From: Dehalobacterium formicoaceticum | GTDB taxonomy: Bacteria; Bacillota; Dehalobacteriia; Dehalobacteriales; Dehalobacteriaceae | Direction: 5' to 3' | NCBI RefSeq assembly: GCF_002224645.1 | Contig: NZ_CP022121.1 | Location: 2,424,501-2,488,500 of the forward strand | DNA length: 64,000 nucleotides | Part shown: positions 6,699 to 64,000 of the stretch, in pieces | How the letters are laid out: the number at the start of each line of letters is the position of its first letter | Numbering within the stretch: the stretch's first letter is position 1 | Notes under the pieces: generated by a model | What the model was told of the DNA's origin: nothing | What the model saw: the letters and a program-made list of their open reading frames with translations, nothing else | Database searches by the model: none | Position numbers and translations under genes: made by a program

Positions 6699-6821
6699 GG
6701 CCACCCTCCTAATATTTTTTTTACTCTCTGCCACAATCTTATTACGATATATTTTATGAAAAGGTGGACAAAAAGGTGCCGGATAATGAAAAGGCTTGGT
6801 ACGGGGATTGCGTGGCCGGGT

Positions 6822-7020
6822 AGAACAGGGGACGGTTCTTTGTTCTAGTATTGAAAAATCTTACTAACAATAAAACCGTTAAGTCTGGATATCTGTGCCA
6901 AACAAAGAACCGTCCCCTGTTTGTAAGTATCTGTGCCAAACAAAGAACCGTCCCCTGTTTGTAGACCCTGTTTGTAAGACCCTGTTTGTAAGACCCTGTT
7001 TGTTCCCCCTGTTTGTTCTA
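6822..7020. repeat. REP-like palindromic repeat, family 1, copy 1
   Basis: Opens with AGAACAGGGGACGGTTCTTT and closes at 6901-6922 with the inverted form AACAAAGAACCGTCCCCTGT. The spacer between them (ATTGAAAAATCTTACTAACA and following) is shared with the copy at 12236-12336. The right arm is repeated again at about 6937-6960, followed by degenerating CCCTGTTTGT units to about 7020. The open frame 6895-7101 in this stretch is made of these repeats and is not counted as a gene. Confidence 0.9.
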
Positions 7021-12196: not shown

Positions 12197-12235
12197 TAAC
12201 AGATAACATCAAGCAATTTCAAGCTGTTCCCGAGT

Positions 12236-12396
12236 AGAACAGGGGACGGTTCTTTGTTCTAGCATTGAAAAATCTTACTAACAATAAATCCGTTAAGTCT
12301 GGATATCTGTGTCAAACAAAGAACCGTCCCCTGTTTGCCGTCTCCCCTGTTTGCCGTCCCCTGTTTGCCTTCTCCCCTGTTTGCCTTCCCCTGTAA
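12236..12396. repeat. REP-like palindromic repeat, family 1, copy 2
   Basis: Full copy at 12236-12336 with the same arms and spacer as 6822-6922 and only a few differences, followed by degenerating CCCTGTTTGCC units to about 12396. Confidence 0.9.
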
Positions 12397-12454: not shown

Positions 12455-12499
12455 TTATAGGAGCTGACAATTTAATACTATAAATACTTTAAATACTTT

Positions 12500-12620
12500 A
12501 AATAGATCAGGCGATACACTTTTTTAGTGTATAGGGTCGGGCAGGCGTAATGCCGGCAACAGGGAAAATACCTGTGGGACTATAATTATCAACAAATTAT
12601 AGACCCATGGGTATTTTTTT
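12500..12620 (+). promoter_or_regulatory. NiCo (czcD-motif) riboswitch with terminator
   Basis: The aptamer region 12504-12604 shows GATCAGGCG, a short stem (ATACACT/AGTGTAT), then GGGTCGGGCAGG, GCCGGCAACAGGG and CCTGTGGGAC, which is the four-helix layout I associate with the Ni/Co-binding czcD motif. CTATAATT/AATTATAG closes the last stem. AAAATACC...TGGG (12565-12578) can pair with CCCATGGGTATTTT (12604-12617), followed by a T-run, giving an intrinsic terminator. Metal binding would be expected to prevent termination. The downstream gene is a cation-efflux transporter, which fits. The identity is by remembered consensus and gene context. Confidence 0.75.
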
Positions 12621-16966: not shown

Positions 16967-17034
16967 AATATAATAACTTTAGATTTTCAGTAAAGAATAA
17001 CTTTAGTTTTTCATTAAAGAAAGGAGTGTTAAAT

Positions 17035-18360
17035 TTGAAACTCGAAATAGGAAATTTCTATGTGAAGGATATTGTTTTTGGGGAAAAGACCTCTTATAAG
17101 AGCGGTATCCTGACCATCGATAAAAAAGAAGCTTTGGACTTTATCTGTCAGGACGAGCATATCACAGAAGCCGAACTTTATATCGCTAAACCGGGAGACA
17201 AAATTCGTATGTGCCCGGTAAAGGAAGCAATTGAACCCCGGGTAAGGTTAAATTGCGGTCCCCTCTTTCCGGGATTTACCGGAGAATTAATGCCTGTAGG
17301 AGAAGGAAAGACCCATGCACTTAAAGACTGCTGTGTCACTGTCGTGGGCAAACACTGGGGTGGATTCCAGGATGGCTTCATCGATATGAGCGGTGAAGGA
17401 GCAAAATACACCTACTACTCCCAGTTGATAAATATTGTGTTGGTAGCTGATACTGATGAGGATTTTGAAAAGCATGAGCAGCAGAAGAAAAACAAGGCGT
17501 TAAGACTGGCAGGCCACAAACTGGCTGAGTTTATCGCTTCATGTGTGCAAGATTTGGTGCCGGAAGAGACGGAAGTTTATCAGTTGGATCCTGTTTTAAA
17601 CAGGGATCCGGAAGTAATGAAGCTGCCCAAGGTGGTACTGGTGCTTCAGCCTCAGTCTCAGATGGAAGAAAGCGGATACAATGACCTGCTTTATGGCTGG
17701 GACACCAATCACATGGTACCCACATTTATGCATCCAAATGAAGTGCTGGATGGCTCGATTATTTCAGGAAGCTTTATGCCCTGTTCTTCCAAGTGGTCCA
17801 CCTATGACTTTCAGAACTTTCCTGTAATTAAGAGGCTGTATCAAGAACATGGCAAGACATTAAACTTCTTAGGGGTCATCATGTCAAATCTTAATGTCGC
17901 CCTGGAACAAAAAGAAAGATCTGCTCTCTTTGTGGCCCAGATCGCAAAATCCCTGGGCGCCGACGGGGCGATTGTTGCGGAAGAAGGCTATGGAAATCCG
18001 GATGCCGACTTTGTGGCATGCATCGTAGCTCTGGAGGATGCAGGAGTTAAAACCGTGGGTATCACCAACGAGTGTACCGGAAGAGACGGAGCATCACAAC
18101 CTCTGGTCACAATGGACGAAAAACTTACTGCCATCGTTTCCTGTGGTAATGTATCAGAAATAATTGAACTTCCTCCCATGGAGACAGTGTTAGGAGAATT
18201 GGAAGCTCTGGGCAGAGACGGTTGTTCCGGCGGCTGGTCAACAGACGAAATCCTGGGACCATCCGTCAGAGAAGACGGTTCTGTGATTATGGAAAACAAC
18301 GCGATGTTCTGTGGTGATCAGGTTGTAGGATGGTCCCCCAAGACCGTCAAAGCATTTTAA
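17035..18360 (+). CDS. Glycine/sarcosine/betaine reductase protein B, alpha/beta proprotein (GrdE/GrdG/GrdI family)
   Basis: 441 residues from the TTG at 17035, placed eight bases after AAGGAG; this gives the family start MKLEIGNFYVKDIVFGEKTS. It belongs to the substrate-binding component of the selenoprotein reductase that converts glycine, sarcosine or betaine to acetyl phosphate. The family is made as a proprotein cleaved at a Cys to form a pyruvoyl cofactor; the conserved region NECTGRDGASQPLVTMD followed by AIVSCGNVSE is present. Which of the three substrates applies cannot be decided from sequence alone. First gene of the operon behind the sigma-54 promoter, 13 bp before the next gene. 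No grdC or grdD is in the window. Confidence 0.9.
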   Translation: MKLEIGNFYVKDIVFGEKTSYKSGILTIDKKEALDFICQDEHITEAELYIAKPGDKIRMCPVKEAIEPRVRLNCGPLFPGFTGELMPVGEGKTHALKDCCVTVVGKHWGGFQDGFIDMSGEGAKYTYYSQLINIVLVADTDEDFEKHEQQKKNKALRLAGHKLAEFIASCVQDLVPEETEVYQLDPVLNRDPEVMKLPKVVLVLQPQSQMEESGYNDLLYGWDTNHMVPTFMHPNEVLDGSIISGSFMPCSSKWSTYDFQNFPVIKRLYQEHGKTLNFLGVIMSNLNVALEQKERSALFVAQIAKSLGADGAIVAEEGYGNPDADFVACIVALEDAGVKTVGITNECTGRDGASQPLVTMDEKLTAIVSCGNVSEIIELPPMETVLGELEALGRDGCSGGWSTDEILGPSVREDGSVIMENNAMFCGDQVVGWSPKTVKAF

Positions 18361-18373
18361 GGAGGTGTAAGCT

Positions 18374-19684
18374 ATGGCAAAAGCAATATTATATATCAAC
18401 CAGTTTTTTGGCCAGATCGGCGGGGAAGACAAAGCTGATATTGCGCCTATGATCCAGGAAGGCTTGGTTGGACCGGCCAACGAGCTTGTAAAACATTTGG
18501 ACGCAGATGTTACCCATACGATCATCTGCGGTGATAACTATATGGGGTCCAATACCGAAGATGCGGTTAATACCATCTTAGAGTTTCTTAAGGACAAGGA
18601 AATGGATATCTTTTTAGCCGGTCCTGCTTTTCAGGCCGGAAGATATGGCAGCGCTTGCGGTCACATCTGTAAAGCCGTAAAAGAAAAATTTAACATCCCG
18701 GTGGTCACATCGATGCACGAAGAGAACCCTGGGGTAGAGATGTTCCAGAAGGATATGTATATCATGAGGGGCGGCAAGAGTGCCGCCAAAATGAGAGAAG
18801 ACATCAAAAATATGGCCCGCCTTGGCAACAAACTCTTAAAAGGCGAGGCTATTCTGGAAGCTGCCCTGGAAGGATATTATCCCAGAGGCATCAGACACCA
18901 AGTGTGGCTGGATGACAAAAAACCGGCTGCCGACAGAGTTGTAGAAATGCTGATCAAAAAATTGAATGGCGAACCCTATGAAACGGAATTACCGATTCCT
19001 AAAATGGATCGGGTACCGATTGCTCCTCCTATCGCAGATTTAAGTAAAGCTAATATTGCCCTGATCACAAGCGGCGGTATTGTTCCCGTGGACAATCCGG
19101 ACAGAATCCAATCAGCCTCTGCTACCAGGTGGGGCCGATACAACATTGAAGGCTTGGATGATCTAAAGAGCGGCGTATACAAAACTGTTCATGCCGGATT
19201 TGACCCGGCTGCAGCAGATGCAGATCCGGATGTAATTACTCCGGTAGATGCTCTGAGGGCTTATGAAAAGGAAGGAAAGATCGGTAAGCTGCATAATTTC
19301 TTCTATTCCACGGTAGGTACCGGCACAACACAGGCAGAAGCAGCAAGAATGGCCCAAGAGATGATACCCTATCTAAGAGAAGATCATGTGGACGGTATTA
19401 TTCTCACCTCCACCTGAGGCACCTGTACACGTTGCGGTGCAACGATGGTAAAAGAGTTAGAACGGGCAGGATTCCCTGTGGTCCAAATGGCTAATTTGAT
19501 TCCGGTGGCGACAACTGTAGGTTCCAACAGAATAGTACCCACCATTTCCATCCCCTATCCTTTGGGCGACCCGGGGACAGATAAAAAGGAACAATGGAAA
19601 CTTCGTTATCACCGGGTAGGCGTTGCCCTGGATTCATTAACGCAAGATGTACAAGAACAAACTGTGTTCAAAGTTAAAATATAA
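18374..19684 (+). CDS. Glycine/sarcosine/betaine reductase protein B, selenoprotein subunit (GrdB/GrdF/GrdH family)
   Basis: 436 residues when the in-frame TGA at 19415-19417 is read as selenocysteine (U348). The sequence around it is ILTST-U-GTCTRCGATMVKEL, the family active site, and the frame continues to 19684. Both halves match the family and the length is as expected. The selenocysteine attacks the substrate bound as a Schiff base on the pyruvoyl subunit and passes a carboxymethyl group to GrdA. GGAGG lies upstream. A SECIS-like hairpin follows the UGA. Automatic annotation would wrongly split this gene at 19417. Confidence 0.95.
19418..19443 (+). promoter_or_regulatory. Bacterial SECIS-like hairpin
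   Basis: GCACC (19419) pairs with GGTGC (19436-19440) just downstream of the UGA codon, at the position needed for SelB-directed selenocysteine insertion. Confidence 0.7.
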
Positions 19685-19770
19685 ATTATTTTCGTTAATT
19701 AACTATATTTAACTATATATGACTGCTTCCGTAATGAGTAAAATTTTAGAATATGAAAGGGGTAAACACC

Positions 19771-20214
19771 ATGCTAAAAGGCAAAAAAGTGGCAGTAATT
19801 GGTGACCGGGACGGCATCCCCGGGCCTGCCATGGAAGAATGTTTGAAATCAGCCGGGGCAGAAGTAGTATTCTCCACTACTGAATGCTTTGTCTGAACAG
19901 CGGCAGGCGCAATGGACCTGGAAAACCAATCCAGGATCAAAGATTTGGCAGAGAAATACGGAAAAGAAGATTTAATAGTTGTTCTGGGCGGGGCTGAAGC
20001 AGAGGCTTCCGGTCTTGCCGCCGAAACCGTATCTGTCGGTGATCCTACTTTTGCCGGTCCATTATCCGGAGTCTCGTTGGGACTCAAAGCTTATCATATT
20101 TTTGAACTTAAAGATGAAATTGATCCAGCTGTTTATGACGAACAAATCAGCATGATGGAAATGGTTCTTGATGTAGACGAAATTATGAACGAAGTTAAGA
20201 CATATCGAAAGTAA
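19771..20214 (+). CDS. grdA: Glycine reductase selenoprotein A
   Basis: 147 residues with the in-frame TGA at 19894-19896 read as selenocysteine. The redox motif is C39-F-V-U42 followed by [11 protein letters not shown], the hallmark of GrdA. This small carrier accepts the carboxymethyl group from protein B as a selenoether and delivers it to protein C, being re-reduced by thioredoxin. GAAAGGGG precedes the ATG. An alternative reading starting at the internal ATG after the UGA (19912) is a truncated artefact. It is the last gene of the operon; the terminator is at 20246-20309. Confidence 0.97.
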
Positions 20215-20245: not shown

Positions 20246-20309
20246 GAAGACTGTCAGAGCAAAAACTTTAAAGATCCTGAGTTTTTGCCCGGCAGTCTTC
20301 TTTTTTTTT
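20246..20309 (+). terminator. Terminator after grdA; same sequence family as 35118-35175
   Basis: GAAGACTG...GCAAAAAC pairs with GTTTTTGC...CAGTCTTC, followed by nine T. The arms and even the CCTGA loop bases recur at 35118-35175. Confidence 0.9.
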
Positions 20310-20324
20310 AAAAGCTTATGGTTA

Positions 20325-20482
20325 AACAGGAAACTAAATATTGTTGATATTATTAGGGGAAAATATGCTATACTAAAAAAAATAAAATTATCGTAAGGGA
20401 CATTATGTGACGAAAACAGCGCAGCAGGAGCTGCGTATTTTTTAGTCAATCATGATTATAGTCAAATAGGGAGGTTTGTTTA
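20325..20482 (+). promoter_or_regulatory. Conserved leader A (promoter plus structured 5-prime UTR) of the CoA-transferase operon
   Basis: Homologous to 24380-24525. Shared blocks are GGAAACTAAATATTGTT, an extended -10 ATATGCTATACT, GACGAAAACA, CGCAG...CTGC and TTTTAGTCAATCAT. The transcribed part folds as one long hairpin (TGAC, AAAA, GCGCAGC, loop AGGA, GCTGCGT, TTTT, GTCA). GGGAGG then leads to the TTG start. I recognise no known riboswitch. Confidence 0.7.
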
Positions 20483-21493
20483 TTGTTCTGGAGTGGACTT
20501 TCACCTGATGACGCCAGAGAATTCCTGGCGAACAAAGACAAGTCAAAAAGAGATAAAAGGATGACCTTGACTGAGGCGGTAAAAACTTTTGTCAAAGACG
20601 GAGATACCTTGGGTATCGGGGGATTTGTCAACAGTCGCCAACCAGTAGCCATTATCCACGAAATCATCCGGCAGGGAGGATGCAACCTAACCTTAAATTT
20701 TCATTCCGCCGGATTAGCCCCGGAGCTTTTAGCCGGTGCGATGGCCCTTAATCCTTCTCATGTTTCAATAAAGCGCATGGAATTTGCTTATTTTGCTCAT
20801 GAATTTGCCGGAATATCATCCATGTTTCGCTATCTGGCCGAAAAGGGTTTAACGGAACTTGAAGACTGGAGCAATTATAATATGTCCGCCCGTTTTAAGG
20901 CCGGGTCAATCGGACTTCCTTTCATGCCTGTCCGGAGCCCATTAGGCAGTGACGTCATGGCCGGTAACCGGTCCAAAACCATGGATTGTCCTTTTACCGG
21001 CCGTCCCATTGGTCTTGTACCGGCAGCTCATCCCAATGTGGGATTAATCCATGTACAGGAGGCGGATATCTATGGGAATTGCCGCATTAATGGACAAACC
21101 TTTACCTGCCCGGAAATTGCCATGGCCTCTGCTCATACCATTATCACCTGTGAAAAGCTGGTGGATCACGAAATAATAACGGCTAATCCCACCCAAACCA
21201 GTATCCCTTTCTTTGCCGTGGATGCGGTCGTGGAAATTCCTTTTGGTGCTTTCCCCGGTATGTGTCATGATCATTATTATTTCGGGCAGACACATATTGC
21301 CGATTTTAAAATGAAAACGGAAGCTTTTCGTCAAGGGGACGCCAGGGGACTGGAAGATTATTACCATAAATATATCTTTGATGTCACTGATTTTGACGGA
21401 TTTATCAGCCAGATTCCTTATCAAGAGCTGAAATACAGCCGGCAGGCAGAAGGACGATCCCTGGACCTGCAAAAGTTTTTGGAAGTATATTGA
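20483..21493 (+). CDS. CoA-transferase family I, subunit A (glutaconate CoA-transferase-like)
   Basis: 336 residues starting at TTG after GGGAGG. The N-terminal extension precedes MTLTEAVKTFVKDGDTLGIG GF; conserved family stretches are LGLPF-type GLPFMPV, AHPNVGLIHVQEADIYGNCR and TIITCEKLVDHEII. The length and pattern match the A subunit of glutaconate-type CoA-transferases. It works as a heterodimer or tetramer with the next gene, moving CoA between a carboxylic acid and acetyl- or another acyl-CoA. The substrate is not clear: no hydroxyglutarate-pathway genes are nearby. Shares its leader type with the xanthine-dehydrogenase-like operon. Confidence 0.85.
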   Translation: MFWSGLSPDDAREFLANKDKSKRDKRMTLTEAVKTFVKDGDTLGIGGFVNSRQPVAIIHEIIRQGGCNLTLNFHSAGLAPELLAGAMALNPSHVSIKRMEFAYFAHEFAGISSMFRYLAEKGLTELEDWSNYNMSARFKAGSIGLPFMPVRSPLGSDVMAGNRSKTMDCPFTGRPIGLVPAAHPNVGLIHVQEADIYGNCRINGQTFTCPEIAMASAHTIITCEKLVDHEIITANPTQTSIPFFAVDAVVEIPFGAFPGMCHDHYYFGQTHIADFKMKTEAFRQGDARGLEDYYHKYIFDVTDFDGFISQIPYQELKYSRQAEGRSLDLQKFLEVY

Positions 21494-21511
21494 GAAGGGG
21501 AGGGATGAATT

Positions 21512-22321
21512 TTGAAACAATACGCCGCAGATTATACTCCTCAGGAAATGCTGGTGGCGGCCGGTTCCCGCCAACTAGAGGACAATAAGGTGATCTTTGC
21601 CGGAACAGGACTGCCGATGGTGGGCATTACCCTGGCTCAATTAACCCATGCACCGGGCATTATACCTGTATTTGAAGCCGGAGCGGTGGGGTCTTCCCTA
21701 ACGAGAGGCCTTCCTTTATCAGTGGGTGATTCCAGAACCAGCTGCAAAGCTCATTATATGCAAGGTTTGAGTTCGGCTTTTGAACTCACCCAAAGGGGTT
21801 TTATTGATATCGGTTTTATCGGCGGGGCGGAGATTGATCCTTATGGCAATCTTAATTCTACGATGATGGGGTGTTTTCCTGAAGAATACCAAAAGCCCAA
21901 GGTAAGGCTGCCGGGGAGCGGAGGTGCCGGTGATATGGCATGCTCCTGCACTAATACCATCATCATTATGGCCCATGAACCACGCCGCTTTGCCCCCAGG
22001 TTGAATTACTATACCAGTATGGGTTATTTTGACGGAAAACCCGGAGCACGAAAAGCGGCCGGCTTGCAGGGAAATGGCCCGGCCCGGGTAATCACGACCA
22101 AAGCATTGATGGGCTTTGATGAGGAAACAAAACGCATGAAGATTCTCGCCACCATGCCGGGGGAAACCGTGGCCAGTGTCCAGGATATGACAGGTTTTCC
22201 TCTTTTGGTGGATGATAATGTCTATGAATTTGAACCGCCTACCGTGGAAGAGATCGGTTTAATACGGGAAGTAATTGATCCCTTAGGTTATTTTGTTAAA
22301 AAAACATTAAAGAGTAGCTGA
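21512..22321 (+). CDS. CoA-transferase family I, subunit B (glutaconate CoA-transferase-like)
   Basis: 269 residues from the TTG at 21512 (GGGGAGGGA upstream), 18 bp after subunit A. The catalytic Glu is E55 in IIPVFEAGAVGS, the residue that forms the glutamyl-CoA thioester in this family. LPLSVGDSR and PGSGGAGDMACSCTNTIIIM (oxyanion-hole type SGGA) follow. Partner of the preceding gene. The length agrees with GctB-type subunits. Confidence 0.88.
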   Translation: MKQYAADYTPQEMLVAAGSRQLEDNKVIFAGTGLPMVGITLAQLTHAPGIIPVFEAGAVGSSLTRGLPLSVGDSRTSCKAHYMQGLSSAFELTQRGFIDIGFIGGAEIDPYGNLNSTMMGCFPEEYQKPKVRLPGSGGAGDMACSCTNTIIIMAHEPRRFAPRLNYYTSMGYFDGKPGARKAAGLQGNGPARVITTKALMGFDEETKRMKILATMPGETVASVQDMTGFPLLVDDNVYEFEPPTVEEIGLIREVIDPLGYFVKKTLKSS

Positions 22322-22357
22322 AAAGTATGACCGCTCATGGAAGGGAGATTTAATGAA

Positions 22358-22984
22358 ATGAGAATTAGAATGAGAATTAGAAATAAAATTAATAGGCATT
22401 TTTTAATGATATTTTGTGTCATGCTGCTGCTTTCGTCTGGCTGTGCTCAAAAAGAAGAAAATATTACCTTTCGTGGGGTAATAGAAGATATTACTGAAAA
22501 CAGTATCCTGGTAACTGTTACCGGGGATAGTACCGATTTTGATAAAGCCAGTGTCGATATTTCCCATGCAGAACGTAAAGTTCAACTTTCGGTGGGTCAA
22601 GGGGTTGAGATAACGATCTTACCTGAAATTCGCGAAAGTTATCCCGTTCAGGTTACAGGAATAGAGATTCGTCCTATTAATCAAAAAATTTCCGCCCAAG
22701 AGGCCAAAGCCATGATCGATGGGGAAGAGGAAGTCATTATTCTTGATGTGCGTACTCGTAGTGAGTACCAGGCAGGGCATATTGAAGGTTCTGTGCTTTT
22801 GCCAAATACCGAAATCAAGGAAAAGGCTGCTCAGGTGCTCCCGGATCAAAACGCAAAAATCCTTATCTACTGCCGCAGCGGCAACAGAAGTGCCCAAGCG
22901 GCAAAACTTCTGCTGGAAATGGGCTATACCAATGTTTATGACTTTGGCGGCATTATTGATTGGCCATACGGGATTGTTCAATAA
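22358..22984 (+). CDS. Rhodanese-domain lipoprotein
   Basis: 208 residues from the ATG at 22358 (GGGAG ten bases upstream; an ATG at 22337 also opens the frame without a binding site). Signal peptide with lipobox LLSSGC, a small beta-rich domain (about 35-105), then a rhodanese domain (about 110-205) with the active-site loop YCRSGNRSAQAA (catalytic Cys present). It is probably an extracytoplasmic sulfurtransferase or persulfide-binding protein anchored to the membrane. The N-terminus MRIRMRIRNK comes from a short tandem duplication. 36 bp after the CoA-transferase B gene and possibly cotranscribed. Confidence 0.88.
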   Translation: MRIRMRIRNKINRHFLMIFCVMLLLSSGCAQKEENITFRGVIEDITENSILVTVTGDSTDFDKASVDISHAERKVQLSVGQGVEITILPEIRESYPVQVTGIEIRPINQKISAQEAKAMIDGEEEVIILDVRTRSEYQAGHIEGSVLLPNTEIKEKAAQVLPDQNAKILIYCRSGNRSAQAAKLLLEMGYTNVYDFGGIIDWPYGIVQ

Positions 22985-23128
22985 GTTAAATGCCTGGAAA
23001 TCTTTTAATACCAATTATCCAACTGCTTTCGTCAAGAAACTGGGATATTAGTCTATGCTGCTAAACAAAAATTTGATATAGTATTAATTATTATCCGATT
23101 AGATTCGAGAAAGAAAAGGAGATATTTT

Positions 23129-24079
23129 ATGGAAAGAAATATATTAGGGGCAACGGGAATGGAAGTATCGCCCCTTTGCTTTGGGGCATTGCCTTTGGGA
23201 CCATTACAGAAGAATCTTCCCTTACCCGAAGGAGCTGCTTTAATCCGCAAGGGATTGGAGCAGGGAATTAATTTTATTGATACGGCAGAAAGCTATTTTA
23301 CTTATCCATACATTAAAGAGGCATTGACCGGCTTTACCGGGGAAGTAATTATCTCATCTAAATCGATGGCGACAACTTACGAAGATATGGAAAAGGCTGT
23401 TTTTGATGGATTGTCTGCTTTAGAAAGAAGCTATTTTGATATTTTTCACCTTCATGCCGCCCGCACCAAAAGGACTGTTTTTGAAGAACGCGGGGGAGCT
23501 TTTCAATGTTTAAAGGATCTGAAGAAAAAAGGTGTCATCCGCGCCATCGGCATTGCCACTCATGCAATTGAGGTGGTAGAAGGAGCAGCGGAAGAAAAGG
23601 ATATTGATGTGGTTTTCCCCCTGATTAACCAAGCCGGACTGGGTATTGTGGGAGGTACTAAGGAGGAGATGATCCGCGCCATTACCCAGGCTCATCAAAA
23701 AGGGAAAGGGCTTTTTGCGATGAAAGCTTTGGCAGGAGGTAATTTGATTGATCAAGTGAAGGAATCTTATGATTTTGTCCTGGGAATTCCTGGGATCAGT
23801 TCAGTTGCCGTAGGAATGGTGGAAGAAAGGGAATTGGAGATCAATGTAAAATTGTTTAATCATGAAGAGGTTATCTTGGATCCAATTGACCAGGTTAAGG
23901 CGAAGAAAAGGTTATGGATCTTTAAGGATGGCTGTATTGGTTGCGGCGCTTGTGTGGATGCCTGCCCCAACAATGCTTTAATGTTAAAGGATGATAAAGC
24001 TGAAGTCGATACAGAGCGTTGTATTTTGTGCGGTTATTGCAGTCCTCATTGCCCTCAGTTTGCCATACGGCTGTTTTAG
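23129..24079 (+). CDS. Aldo/keto reductase with C-terminal 2[4Fe-4S] ferredoxin domain
   Basis: 316 residues. The aldo/keto reductase barrel occupies about 1-250 (INFIDTAESYFTYPYIKEAL, GVIRAIGIATH, ISSVAVGM). The C-terminus has two 4Fe-4S motifs, CIGCGACVDACPNNA and CILCGYCSPHCPQFA. These fusions are common in anaerobes; the substrate is unknown and the electron donor is probably ferredoxin or NAD(P)H. AAAAGGAG precedes the ATG. A terminator at 24138-24168 ends the unit. Confidence 0.93.
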   Translation: MERNILGATGMEVSPLCFGALPLGPLQKNLPLPEGAALIRKGLEQGINFIDTAESYFTYPYIKEALTGFTGEVIISSKSMATTYEDMEKAVFDGLSALERSYFDIFHLHAARTKRTVFEERGGAFQCLKDLKKKGVIRAIGIATHAIEVVEGAAEEKDIDVVFPLINQAGLGIVGGTKEEMIRAITQAHQKGKGLFAMKALAGGNLIDQVKESYDFVLGIPGISSVAVGMVEERELEINVKLFNHEEVILDPIDQVKAKKRLWIFKDGCIGCGACVDACPNNALMLKDDKAEVDTERCILCGYCSPHCPQFAIRLF

Positions 24080-24137
24080 ACAAAGGGATTAAAGAAAAAA
24101 CAGAACCATATAATATTGATAATATTTATTTATGAAT

Positions 24138-24168
24138 AAAAGGCCTTTCCAAAATGGAGAGGCTTTTT
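24138..24168 (+). terminator. Terminator after aldo/keto reductase
   Basis: GCCTTTCC/GGAGAGGC hairpin (one G-T pair) followed by TTTTT. Confidence 0.82.
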
Positions 24169-24170
24169 AC

Positions 24171-24347
24171 GCTGAGGTGAGAGTGATCGCACGGAAAGCT
24201 CATGCCGGGTGCGATTATCTGCCGACAAGCGGAGATGTGAATAATGATGGTCAGGTGAACATTCTGGATGTTGTCATGACAATCAATTTCTTGTTGGAGA
24301 AAAATACGCCAAATGAAGCCGAGTTTATTGATAAAAAATATCATTGA
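24171..24347 (+). pseudogene. Orphan dockerin-type-I module fragment
   Basis: An open frame to the stop at 24345 encodes GDVNNDGQVNILDVVMTINF-LLEKN, a dockerin calcium-binding repeat (Asp/Asn ligands spaced as in an EF-hand loop). Only one and a half repeats exist, with no signal peptide and no catalytic domain. The frame can be extended to an ATG at 24132 only through the terminator of the previous gene. Most likely the tail of a lost extracellular enzyme. Confidence 0.65.
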
Positions 24348-24379
24348 CAGAAAACAATAAATAAAAACTTATTGTTAAT

Positions 24380-24525
24380 CGGGAAACTAAATATTGTTTA
24401 TCAGGAAACAATATGATATACTAAAAAAAATTATATAAAGCGATATTATGAGACGAAAACAACGCAGGAACTGCATATTTTAGTCAATCATTCTTATTAC
24501 TATTATATAGGGGAGGTAATGTAGA
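24380..24525 (+). promoter_or_regulatory. Conserved leader B of the xanthine-dehydrogenase-like operon
   Basis: Homologous to leader A (20325-20482). A perfect palindrome ATATTGTTT/AAACAATAT overlaps the -35 region (TTGTTT, 17 bp, TATACT), a likely operator. The RNA part conserves GACGAAAACA, CGCAG-GAA-CTGC and TTTTAGTCAATCAT. GGGGAGGT precedes the TTG start at 24526. Confidence 0.7.
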
Positions 24526-25410
24526 TTGTTTACGGATTATATTTTCCCATCAACAGTCGAGGAAGGGATAAAAGCGCTTCAAGAGGCTAATGGTAGGGGA
24601 CGGATTATTGCCGGCGGAACCGACATTTTACTTGACCTTGAAAACGGTAAGTATCACGCTGAATTACTTGTTGACATTTCCCGAATACCGGAACTTCAGG
24701 AAATCGGCATTGAAAACGACACCCTCGTGATTGGAGCCGCAGTAAACTTAACCACCATATCTTGTTCCGATTTGGTCAAGAAATACGCACCGTCACTTGC
24801 CAAAGCGGCAGGCAGGGTAGGTGCACTCCAAATTGGAAACGTAGCGACATTAGCCGGAAACGTAGTGACGGCTCAACCAGCGGCCGATGGGGCAATGGCC
24901 TTGGCCACCTTGGAACCGGAATTCATCATAGAAGGGCCGGAGGGACAGCGCAAAGCATCTATGAGCGAAATGTATGCAGGGTTCGCAAAAAGCAAAGTTG
25001 ACAGTACCAAAGAGATCATCACATATATTAGAATTCCTTGTCAAAAAGACGGCGAAGCAGCTGAATTTGAAAGACTGGGTATGAGAGAACATCTTGCCTT
25101 ACCCATGCTTAACACCTCAGTTGCGGCAAGGCAGGAAAATGGGAAATTTGAATGGGTAAGAATCGCGATGGGACCTGTGGGTGTCGGCCCGGTAAGAGCG
25201 AAAAAAGCCGAAGCATGGCTGGCACATAAAGATATTACGAAAGAGAATATTCAACAGGCTGCCCAATTGGTATTGGAAGATGCCAACCCAAGAAGCAACC
25301 CTGTTCGCGGATCCAGGGAATATCGGATGAAAACTTTACCGATAATTGTAGCACAAGCGCTCAATAGCGTTGCCGGACAATTAGGTTTTGGGGGTGATTT
25401 GAGTGATTAA
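24526..25410 (+). CDS. Molybdopterin dehydrogenase FAD-binding subunit (CoxM/XdhB-type)
   Basis: 294 residues, TTG start eight bases after GGGGAGGT. FAD-binding motifs are RIIAGGTDILLDL and the second loop ALQIGNVATLAGNVVTAQPA; the C-terminal CO-dehydrogenase flavoprotein domain is present. It carries electrons from the molybdenum/2Fe-2S subunit to NAD+ or another acceptor. The stop overlaps the start of the next gene by 8 bp. Purine (xanthine) is a plausible substrate because an NCS2-type permease remnant lies in the same cluster, but related enzymes oxidise other heterocycles. Confidence 0.9.
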   Translation: MFTDYIFPSTVEEGIKALQEANGRGRIIAGGTDILLDLENGKYHAELLVDISRIPELQEIGIENDTLVIGAAVNLTTISCSDLVKKYAPSLAKAAGRVGALQIGNVATLAGNVVTAQPAADGAMALATLEPEFIIEGPEGQRKASMSEMYAGFAKSKVDSTKEIITYIRIPCQKDGEAAEFERLGMREHLALPMLNTSVAARQENGKFEWVRIAMGPVGVGPVRAKKAEAWLAHKDITKENIQQAAQLVLEDANPRSNPVRGSREYRMKTLPIIVAQALNSVAGQLGFGGDLSD

Positions 25411-27538
25411 GAATATTAGCTTCACTCTGAATGGGGAAAAAAGGGAAATCAAAGTTGAAGCTTCACTGAGACTTTTGGACGTGTTAAGAGATCATTTGGC
25501 TTTAACAGGAACGAAATGCGGCTGCGGGGAAGGGGAATGCGGAGCATGCACAGTAGTTGTAAACGGACAGGCCATAAACTCCTGTTTGGTTCCCATTGGG
25601 AAAGCCCAAGATGCGGATATATGGACTGTTGAAGGGTTACAAAATGGGGATGAACTACATCCGGTTCAAGAGGCCTTCCTTGAAATGGGCGCGGTGCAGT
25701 GCGGCTTTTGTACTCCCGGGATGCTGATGAGTGCAAAAGCTCTGCTGGACAGAAATCAGTCTCCAACACCTGAGGATATCGAAAAAGCGTTAGGCGGAAA
25801 CATTTGCAGATGCACGGGATTCGTAAAAATCATTGAGGCGGTAAAATATGCTGCGGCAAAGATGCGCGGCGAGAATCCATCCAAAGATGATTACCGCACC
25901 CTTGAAAAGTCCAGCATTGTCGCGGGGGAACAACGCCAGGATGTGGAGACTCCAAAGGGCAGGGTATTTGGCAAACGCCTTTGGGATGTGGATGGCGTTG
26001 CCAAGGTTACCGGTGCTCTTAAATTTGCCGCCGACTACGAAACTGAAGACATGCTTTACGGTGCTTTGGTATGGGCTCCCATTGCCTGCGGTAAGCTAGA
26101 AGGGCTTGATACGGTTGAGGCAGAAAAGCAGCCTGGTGTTGTAAAGATATTGACGTATAAGGATGTGCCGGGAGAAAACGCATTTGGTTGCTTTAAACTT
26201 GATCAGCCGGTATTTTGCAGGGATAAGATTAACTTCTATGGGGATATGCTGGCGTTGGTCATAGCGGAGGACATGGCAACCGCCCGCAGAGCCGCGAAGC
26301 TGGTTAAGGTAGATGTCGAAGAGACCGATGGTGCTTATACAATGGAGGACGGTATTGCCAAAGATTTGGTGATGGCATCCGTTGATCACGAAATGGGTGA
26401 TGTTGAAACGGGGCGAGAAATGGCATACCTGCATCTAAGGGGCGACTTTGACATGGAGCGTGTGGAACATGGCTATCTTGAGCCGGAAGCAGCAATGGGC
26501 GTATGGCACGGTGACGACGGTGTGCAGGTTATTTCATGTACTCAATCCCCTTTTGAGATTCGCAAGATGCTAACTAAGGTTCTTAATCTACCGGAGGATA
26601 AGATACAGGTTACTGCATCTCCCCTGGGCGGAGCTTTCGGCGGCAAGTGTGATACCTACATTGAGTCGGCGGCGGCCGTCGCGGCAATCGCTGTGCAGCG
26701 GCCTGTGATGATCCCCCTTAACCGGGAAGAGTCAATGAAGTTAACCACAAAACGCCATGCCTTTAAGAACCATTATGAACTGGGCCTCTCAGAAGAAGGC
26801 AAGATTTTGTATCTGGACACAGATATCGTCTCAGATGCGGGCTCGTATACAATTTTGAGTCCAGGGGTTTTACAGCAGGCCTGCATTTTTTCCGGAGGTC
26901 CATACGAAATTCCCAACATTAAGGTGCGAGGACGAACGATAAGAACAAATAACTCCCAGGGAGGAGCCTTCCGGGGGTTTGGCATCAATCAGTCGGCAAT
27001 ATGTATCGAAACCCTTCTGGATGAGGCAGCGGAAAAACTCAACATCGATCCCTTCGAACTGCGCAGAAGGAACGCACTGAAGGTAGGATCCACAACTGTC
27101 ACCGGGGAGATTCTCAAACAAAGCGTGGGCATTATCGACACTATTAATGAATGTCAGAAGATTGTTGAACGGGAGCGCCCCCGTTTTGAAGCCATGTACC
27201 CTGAGGGGAAAAAAGGACGCAAGGTGCTGGGTATTGGCATGGCCAGCGGTTTTAAAAATGTCGGTGTCGGTAAGGGCTTGGCGGATGACGGGGGCTGCAT
27301 CCTGACAATATTGCCTGATGGCAGGATTGAGATGCGCGCCTCGGGCGTTGATATGGGTCAGGGTTTCCGTACAGCTATGATCCAGATCGCCGCAGAAAAG
27401 CTGGGCAGAGATCCTGAGGATTTCATTATTGTTTCGGGAGACACAAATGAGACCCTGCACCATAATCAGATCGTCAGTGGGCATGTATACCATGCTGGCC
27501 GATTGGGAAAATCAGACTTTGTCTGTGAATCGGGTTAA
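25403..27538 (+). pseudogene. Xanthine-dehydrogenase-like [2Fe-2S]/molybdopterin fusion subunit, 3-prime truncated
   Basis: 711 codons are open. Residues 1-160 are the 2Fe-2S part (TKCGCGEGECGACTV and CGFCTPGM...ICRCTGF). From about 190 the molybdopterin-binding subunit follows (SPLGGAFGGKCDTYIES, GGAFRGFGINQS). The homologous sequence stops near NETLHHNQIVS (about 27478); the last 13 or so residues are out of family and read into permease DNA in the wrong frame. The C-terminal 150-200 residues, including the catalytic Glu motif of the family, are missing, so the enzyme is probably non-functional. The cause looks like a deletion joining this gene to the permease fragment. An assembly join is the alternative. 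Confidence 0.85.
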
Positions 27539-28055
27539 CAGAGGTTTGTTCTCCGAGGTGTTGGGTTGTACTCTCGGGTCAGTTTTCGGTGGTATTGCCA
27601 CTACATCGTATCCGGAGAATATCGGCATAATCCGCGTGTCTGGTATCGGGAGCCGTTATGTTACTTTAACTGCAGGCATCTTGGCGCTTATTCTTGGTCT
27701 GCTGCCTAAGGTTGGTGTGTTTATTGCATCAATTCCTGCGCCGGTGTTAAGTGGAGCAAGTACAATTCTTTTCGGTATCATTGCCTTCAGTGGTATTCAA
27801 ATGTTGGCAGGTGTAGAGTGGGATGAATTAAATATGGCTGTAGCTGCACCAGCTTTTATTATTGGTCTGGGTACAATGTGGATGCCCGCCGATGTGTTGG
27901 CGTTGTTGCCGCTTTCTATTCAAGGCATCTTCACCCAGCCGATGCTGGTAGGTTTGATCCTCCTTATTGTTTTAAACGCGATTATCAATATGGTTATTCG
28001 CCCATACCTTGAAAAAAAACAAGACAAGCATGATTCAGCTAAGGCTGCTGTTTAA
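27480..28055 (+). pseudogene. C-terminal half of an NCS2 (xanthine/uracil-type) permease
   Basis: Reads MLADWENQTLSVNRVNRGLF, then GIATTSYPENIGIIRVSGI and four hydrophobic segments ending in an Asn/Ile-rich helix, matching the second half of nucleobase:cation symporter-2 proteins. The N-terminal part (about 200 or more residues) is absent and there is no ribosome-binding site. The fragment begins at the deletion junction inside the dehydrogenase gene. Confidence 0.85.
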
Positions 28056-29283: not shown

Positions 29284-29402
29284 AACGCGGGTTTGCAGAA
29301 ATGCTAACACGCGTTTTAGGTTTACTCTGCATGGAATCGTGCGCGATTCAAGGGATGCATCCTTTTCAAGGAAATAATAATGTTAGTAGGAAAAAGATAT
29401 TG

Positions 29403-29431
29403 TTGACGGAGGAAAAGAAAATGCATTAAAA
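29403..29431 (+). promoter_or_regulatory. Putative promoter of marR-type gene
   Basis: TTGACG and TTAAAA separated by 17 bp, 45 bp before the ATG. Confidence 0.5.
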
Positions 29432-29476: not shown

Positions 29477-29974
29477 ATGATGAGGAAACCTAAATCAAAT
29501 CCTGAGATATTGTTATCAAAATATTTAGAAATGCACGATAAGGATGACATACTAACCAAGTCAGATTCCAGATATCTAATTGAAGGTTATGGGGTTTCTG
29601 AGACTAACTGCGTGGATAAAATTGGAGTTTTGGATCAACCAAATGTAACGAAAATTGCGAAGGAACTAAACTTGAGCCGCGGTGCTGTAAGTAAAATCAT
29701 AAAAAAACTAATTTCCAGCGGAGATGTGGTATCTTACCAAAACCCCGGAAATAAAAAGGAAATATACTACCAACTGACAGAAAAGGGACAGTTACTATTT
29801 ATAGAACATCAAAAGAGGCATGAATCATGGAAAGAACGGCAGCTCAAATTTTTTGAGAATATGCAGCAAGATGAACTGGCAGTGGTATGTAATTTTTTCA
29901 CCGAATTTAACAAGAACTTAGAACGACAAATCAGGGAATCAAAGAAAAAGAAGCTTCCCATTAACCAAGATTAA
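29477..29974 (+). CDS. MarR-family transcriptional regulator
   Basis: 165 residues. The winged helix-turn-helix is at about 55-110: VTKIAKELNLSRGAVSKIIK (recognition helices) and the wing with EIYYQLTEKGQ. C-terminal helices form the dimer interface and end in a Lys-rich tail. It regulates an unknown target; the only close gene is the convergent cytochrome, so the target may be elsewhere or itself. GGTGGAGATAAA lies upstream of the ATG. Confidence 0.9.
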   Translation: MMRKPKSNPEILLSKYLEMHDKDDILTKSDSRYLIEGYGVSETNCVDKIGVLDQPNVTKIAKELNLSRGAVSKIIKKLISSGDVVSYQNPGNKKEIYYQLTEKGQLLFIEHQKRHESWKERQLKFFENMQQDELAVVCNFFTEFNKNLERQIRESKKKKLPINQD

Positions 29975-62992: not shown

Positions 62993-64000
62993 GCGGAACC
63001 TCCACATTGGATGTATTGAAATTTGAGCAAATCTTCATCGCTTATTTCATCAAACTTAGCGGAACCTCCACATTGGATGTATTGAAATCCAAGAAAGTAA
63101 TAAGCGGCGCGGGAGAGATGCGATAGCGGAACCTCCACATTGGATGTATTGAAATAGGACTTGGCTGAGTTTGAATTACTGGACAGAATAGCGGAACCTC
63201 CACATTGGATGTATTGAAATTTAATTCTAACTGTTATTAGATTTTTTTCTCCTTGCGCGGAACCTCCACATTGGATGTATTGAAATAGCGTTAATTTTAG
63301 CTGGTGTAAGTATTACGTCTGGGCGGAACCTCCACATTGGATGTATTGAAATAAACGACAGAATGATTGATAGACAAATTCGAGGAGTGCGGAACCTCCA
63401 CATTGGATGTATTGAAATTTGTTCTGCCATTGCTCCCGGATGTGGGGATATTTAGCGGAACCTCCACATTGGATGTATTGAAATTAATTTCCATAACCAC
63501 ACCTTCTAAACCATTGATAGCGGAACCTCCACATTGGATGTATTGAAATATCTCAAACTCATTTTCATTGTTCTGCCATTGCTCCGCGGAACCTCCACAT
63601 TGGATGTATTGAAATATAAACTTGTCCGCTTTCTCGGAAAAAATAAATGCAGCGGAACCTCCACATTGGATGTATTGAAATTGTTCCCTGCAAATCTGAT
63701 TTACTTTAAGCAAGTATTGCGGAACCTCCACATTGGATGTATTGAAATTAAAAGAATCCTGTTCCTCCGTATTCGACAGTGCTAGCGGAACCTCCACATT
63801 GGATGTATTGAAATTAGTTTGCATTATGCAGGTAATACACGCTGTAAAAGGCGGAACCTCCACATTGGATGTATTGAAATAAGCTAATAAACCAAATCTA
63901 TTTATTTGTCTAAACGCGGAACCTCCACATTGGATGTATTGAAATAAGTTAATAGAAATGTATATGTCTTTAAAAGGAAAAGCGGAACCTCCACATTGGA
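62993..64000 (+). CRISPR. CRISPR array, 15 complete repeats plus one cut by the window edge
   Basis: 30-bp repeats beginning GCGGAACCTCC and ending GTATTGAAAT, all identical, starting at 62993, 63059, 63126, 63191, 63257, 63323, 63389, 63455, 63520, 63586, 63652, 63719, 63785, 63851, 63916 and 63982 (partial). 15 spacers of 35-37 bp. The ATTGAAAT end gives the crRNA handle, so the array is transcribed on the plus strand away from cas2. Spacers 7 (63419-63454) and 9 (63550-63585) overlap by 18 bases of the same protospacer region. Reverse complements of several spacers are open reading frames, as expected for phage or plasmid genes. The protein-like frames on the minus strand here are repeat artefacts. 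Confidence 0.99.

Follow-up and report, generated by a model that had tools for sequence, protein, structure and literature searches.

Two operons of Dehalobacterium formicoaceticum, a bacterium with a complete genome of 3,766,545 bp, are preceded about 4 kb apart by homologous regulatory modules, referred to here as copies A and B. The pair has the appearance of a promoter with binding sites for protein that was duplicated locally long ago, not of a new RNA sensor. Somewhat favored among the explanations weighed below is a cis-regulatory module that was duplicated and is controlled by a local repressor, probably the MarR-family protein encoded at 29477-29974, with the hairpin of copy A acting at most as a weak attenuator. 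The window, the whole stretch of DNA that was analyzed, comprises 64,000 nucleotides, and all positions refer to it unless a genome position is indicated. The modules and the genes behind them are as follows.

20309..20459, + strand: copy A of the module (operator, extended -10 promoter, leader hairpin), preceding the CoA-transferase pair; blastn and shuffle control
20483..22321, + strand: the first genes behind copy A, encoding CoA-transferase subunits A and B from TTG starts; Pfam CoA_trans in both
24362..24497, + strand: copy B of the module, preceding the molybdenum hydroxylase genes; blastn and shuffle control
24526..27538, + strand: xanthine-dehydrogenase-like FAD subunit and truncated Mo/Fe-S subunit, after copy B; profile searches
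27429..28055, + strand: C-terminal fragment of an NCS2 xanthine permease, covering only 235-407 of 407 positions of the pbuX profile; Pfam Xan_ur_permease

The blocks which an earlier note had described as shared by the two leaders were all recovered in place, and homology was confirmed when the window was aligned to itself with blastn (151 columns, 76.8% identical, E 1.3e-24) as well as by a local alignment score of 137, compared with a maximum of 32 among 500 shuffled pairs. Identical letters occupied 117 of 136 ungapped columns, or 118 of 134 in the third of three alignment settings, and at its 3' end the module stops short of the ribosome-binding site and the TTG start codon in both operons. 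Substitutions between A and B were no more clustered than under random placement in any of the three settings (p 0.63-0.90), the longest identity run (20) and the sum of squared runs being reached by 63-90% of 5000 permutations. Identity in the hairpin region (40/44) did not differ significantly from that of the remainder (73/86; Fisher p 0.42). Thus, the supposedly conserved blocks are of the kind expected when a duplication diverges uniformly, and with two copies selection and shared ancestry are inseparable.

The genes served by the two promoters show no evident common pathway, which the earlier note had suggested examining. The nearest solved relative of CoA-transferase subunit A is glutaconate CoA-transferase (1poi), and the pair is followed by a rhodanese-domain protein and then by an aldo/keto reductase with a ferredoxin domain. 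Operon B continues behind the dehydrogenase genes with the permease fragment and an isochorismatase-fold hydrolase, and it is truncated. Because homology of the Mo subunit to its intact paralogue stops at 27454 and the permease begins only at profile position 235 in another frame, a deletion has fused the dehydrogenase and permease genes, which are joined out of frame (25403-28055, junction near 27454-27471). Operon B is accordingly damaged and may be decaying. No module was found upstream of the paralogous dehydrogenase operons in the same genome. Two of these, L144 (G000:C1:2041190-2044937) and L145 (2220628-2224376), are 99.8% identical over 3.8 kb; their Fe-S subunit has 173 residues in L145, and the listed frame in L144 starts later and has 122.

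Several further features of the window were recorded. A glycine/sarcosine/betaine reductase cluster (17026-20214) carries a selenocysteine TGA at 19415-19417 with a SECIS_4 element directly after it. Upstream of copy B, 24190-24330 encodes by eye a dockerin-like repeat (GDVNNDGQVNILDVV), possibly a gene remnant. An intergenic inverted-repeat element occurs in two copies (6816-6923 and 12230-12337; 96% identical) with the ends ACAGGGGACGGTTCTTTGTT and AACAAAGAACCGTCCCCTGT. From 62993 to 64000 there is a CRISPR-type array with at least 16 copies of the repeat GCGGAACCTCCACATTGGATGTATTGAAAT at 65-67 bp spacing, which runs past the end of the window.

The functional part of the module was sought in its DNA, where putative operator units lie next to presumed promoter elements.

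24370..24391, + strand: first operator unit of copy B, TATTGTTAATCGGGAAACTAAA; agrees with the 22-bp consensus without a mismatch
24392..24413, + strand: operator unit 2 of copy B, TATTGTTTATCAGGAAACAATA; 22 bp from unit 1, holding a perfect palindrome
20317..20338, + strand: operator unit 1 of copy A, TATGGTTAAACAGGAAACTAAA; 2 mismatches to the consensus
20369..20374, + strand: presumed -10 hexamer TATACT of copy A, with TG-N before it (extended -10)
24417..24422, + strand: hexamer TATACT of the presumed extended -10 promoter in copy B, lying 17 bp downstream of TTGTTT

The promoters were read from the sequence as extended -10 types (TGC-TATACT in A, TGA-TATACT in B), and neither was listed by a consensus promoter scan. 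In copy B the operator units stand in tandem, and the perfect palindrome TTGTTT-N6-AAACAA at 24394-24411 overlaps the promoter and spans the presumed -35 region, as the earlier note had described. In copy A the operator is imperfect: an insertion of 5 bp interrupts unit 2 (from 20339) at the place where B has its palindrome, and no equivalent palindrome is present. A genome-wide search with the 22-mer (up to 3 mismatches) yielded four sites, namely B twice (0 mismatches), A (2) and genome position 185548 (3; by eye the end of a reading frame), and none for the reversed control; the consensus was built from A and B, which makes its fit at these two partly circular. Since further sites are lacking, a global regulator is unlikely. 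The window holds 30 half-sites of the form TATTGTT/AACAATA. Four of these fall in the 61 bp of 24353-24413 in copy B, a density reached by none of the 41 other seven-letter permutations in the window (largest count three, by an overlapping word); the half-site at 24353 lies outside the duplicated part. With a 22-bp operator almost private to both promoters, the proposal of an operator-like element and of common control of the two operons is supported. Three exact matches of the operator pattern were found in viral contigs, some of which can be explained by chance, the collection being large.

A candidate for the binding protein is encoded close by.

29477..29974, + strand: MarR-family regulator, candidate operator binder; Pfam MarR E 1.3e-8
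29398..29415, + strand: half-sites resembling the operator, TATTGTT-N6-GGAAA, before the MarR gene; pattern search

Solved relatives of this protein include AdcR and a regulator of fatty-acid biosynthesis. The site before its gene has a spacer of 6 bp, compared with 5 bp in the consensus operator, and was matched by the loose pattern TATTGTTN{4,8}GGAAA, which hit 12 sites genome-wide (7 for the reversed control): eight in reading frames, two in copy B, one upstream of marR and one elsewhere. Within the window four sites were found with 0.17 expected, one of the four lying inside a glycine-reductase-type gene. As the pattern was devised after the marR upstream sequence had been viewed, the marR site is treated as a lead. 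As in promoters under local MarR repressors of the AdcR or FabT type, the palindromic operator is AT-rich and lies over the -35 region, target promoters are few, and a regulator gene with related half-sites before it is nearby. In the present case, however, the units lack symmetry and stand in tandem, copy A has a single, imperfect unit, and binding is predicted. The motif matches no operator that can be named. The Rex operator of Clostridia is TTGTTAA-N4-TTAACAA. An 18-bp span and the ends TTGTT/AACAA are common to it and the motif found here, but by eye B unit 2 differs at 3 of 14 fixed positions, and the search of the whole genome did not yield a set of sites for this motif.

From these observations a course of events may be outlined. 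An ancestral promoter region, operator and beginning of the 5' leader included, would have been duplicated across about 4 kb, one duplicate (A) now driving the CoA-transferase pair and the other (B) the xanthine-dehydrogenase-like genes. DNA would form the functional core, in the shape of 22-bp operator units that stand in tandem and overlap the -35 region, on which a local regulator could block or tune RNA polymerase. The probable binder is the MarR-family protein of 29477-29974, whose own gene is preceded by related half-sites. The leader hairpin would have been carried along in the duplication and might serve as a weak intrinsic attenuator in A; the hairpin of B is much weaker. Against a regulon of two promoters stand the broken unit 2 of copy A and the lack of an obvious common pathway of the operons.

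Any role of the leader RNA depends on the hairpins.

20408..20448, + strand: leader hairpin of copy A, terminator-like; -17.4 kcal/mol, z -4.5; terminator scan
24451..24486, + strand: leader hairpin of copy B, weakened, with a 4-bp inner stem and a 4-T run; -6.4 kcal/mol, z -2.4

The hairpin of A consists of an A-run, a 7-bp inner stem with five G-C pairs and a 4-base loop, followed by ATTTTTTA. The earlier note had described stems that differ in length and keep their pairing under selection. The length difference (7 and 4 bp) was found, and pairing is unchanged but not maintained by covariation: on the structure of A, both copies have letters at 11 of 14 pairs, all of them constant, three fall on gaps, and none of the 14 was changed on both sides or on either side, two sequences being compared. 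The strength of the fold was not kept. In the damaged operon B, the weak hairpin may be a matter of decay.

The terminator features of A would suit an attenuation leader, in which the hairpin is an intrinsic terminator opened by a ribosome, a protein or an alternative fold when the operon is needed. Likewise, the hairpin model built on A retrieves terminators elsewhere: all eight loci viewed among the 13 matched other genomes showed an A-run, a stem and a T-run. Small reading frames begin just 5' of the hairpin in both copies. Yet the short stem and four T of B were not called a terminator on the + strand, the minimum-energy folds of the leaders contain no competing antiterminator, and the small reading frames of A and B are unlike in frame and peptide. 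A leader peptide conserved between the copies was rejected: B can encode MRRKQRRNCIF, beginning with the ATG at 24448, whereas the ATG of A aligned with it is directly followed by TGA, and the other frame of A reads VTKTAQQELRIF from GTG. Copy A resembles the leader-terminator attenuators of Bacillota in that its leader, about 100 nt long, holds a terminator-like hairpin; the present case departs from them in that no antiterminator was seen, there is no T-box or other Rfam match, and the hairpin of B is not terminator-like. As an explanation of the pair, attenuation is considered unlikely. Neutral segmental duplication, which would leave a promoter before each operon and no common regulator, agrees with the random placement of substitutions, the lack of further copies and the broken operon B. 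It fits poorly with the same place and orientation of both copies before TTG-started genes, with the tandem units and with the extra half-site of B at 24353 outside the duplicated part, and is judged quite unlikely.

A ligand-sensing or protein-binding RNA, be it a new riboswitch class or a SECIS-like selenium sensor, is extremely unlikely. In its favor, the folds of A and B share the GCAG/CTGC core, A has ATG-TGA and then the hairpin, recalling selenocysteine elements, and the leaders neighbor a selenoprotein gene cluster with SECIS_4 at 19418-19455. B, however, has AGA in place of the TGA of A and folds far more weakly, there is no covariation, and no match lies inside either leader in Rfam 15 (gathering threshold for the window, E <= 10 for 20300-24560), which agrees with the statement of the earlier note that no known riboswitch class was recognized. 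A selenocysteine-type or SECIS element was rejected, UGA being present in A only and no Rfam SECIS match lying in either leader. In the same window a NiCo riboswitch scored well above gathering at 12493-12584.

The search for relatives of the leaders told against such an RNA as well: across 248 other genomes and 79 loci it brought up terminator-like or background matches and nothing that was convincing as a homologue. In the own genome two copies were returned by blastn, by the hairpin model R1 (E <= 0.1) and by the whole-module sequence model R2. A third R2 match there, at genome position 1341480 (E 0.014), is coding DNA at the start of a peptidase-like gene and was counted as chance. Across 249 genomes, the own included, R1 matched 14 (E <= 0.1), 13 of them others, and the eight viewed were terminator-like; no further member was recognized by covariance model in the 248 other genomes. 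At 79 loci of CoA-transferase homologues (51 + 28) R1 found no module (best match E 0.47) and the best R2 match outside A and B had E 0.11, while on 31 whole genomes (the own and 30 with CoA-transferase loci) R2 had no match with E under 0.01 apart from A and B themselves. When A and B were each compared by blastn with 61 genomes, the own included, only short weak matches were returned outside the own genome; those in the relatives G009, G025, G022 and G023 were judged to be stretches resembling coding DNA in two cases and -10 regions of generic promoters in the other two. A mobile element was also rejected, as blastn of A and B gave no match in plasmids and phages and the hairpin pattern none in viral contigs. 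The selected RNA proposed earlier thus finds no compensatory change, no constant strength, no clustered divergence and no convincing homologue beyond A and B; the earlier note had itself named just two copies and a lack of compensatory substitutions as signs of simple duplication, and this is largely what was found. That both leaders are the sole surviving members of a lineage-private regulatory RNA acting with the operator, for instance an A terminator held open by a bound protein, with DNA-level and RNA-level control in one module, is deemed very improbable.

A literature search brought up no regulatory study of these genes or leaders among the matches listed. With the duplicated module under a local, probably MarR-type repressor as the preferred reading, a candidate riboswitch would be replaced by a small regulon of two promoters in a bacterium fermenting dichloromethane. 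A duplicated promoter with few differences can mimic a conserved RNA structure if only two copies are compared.
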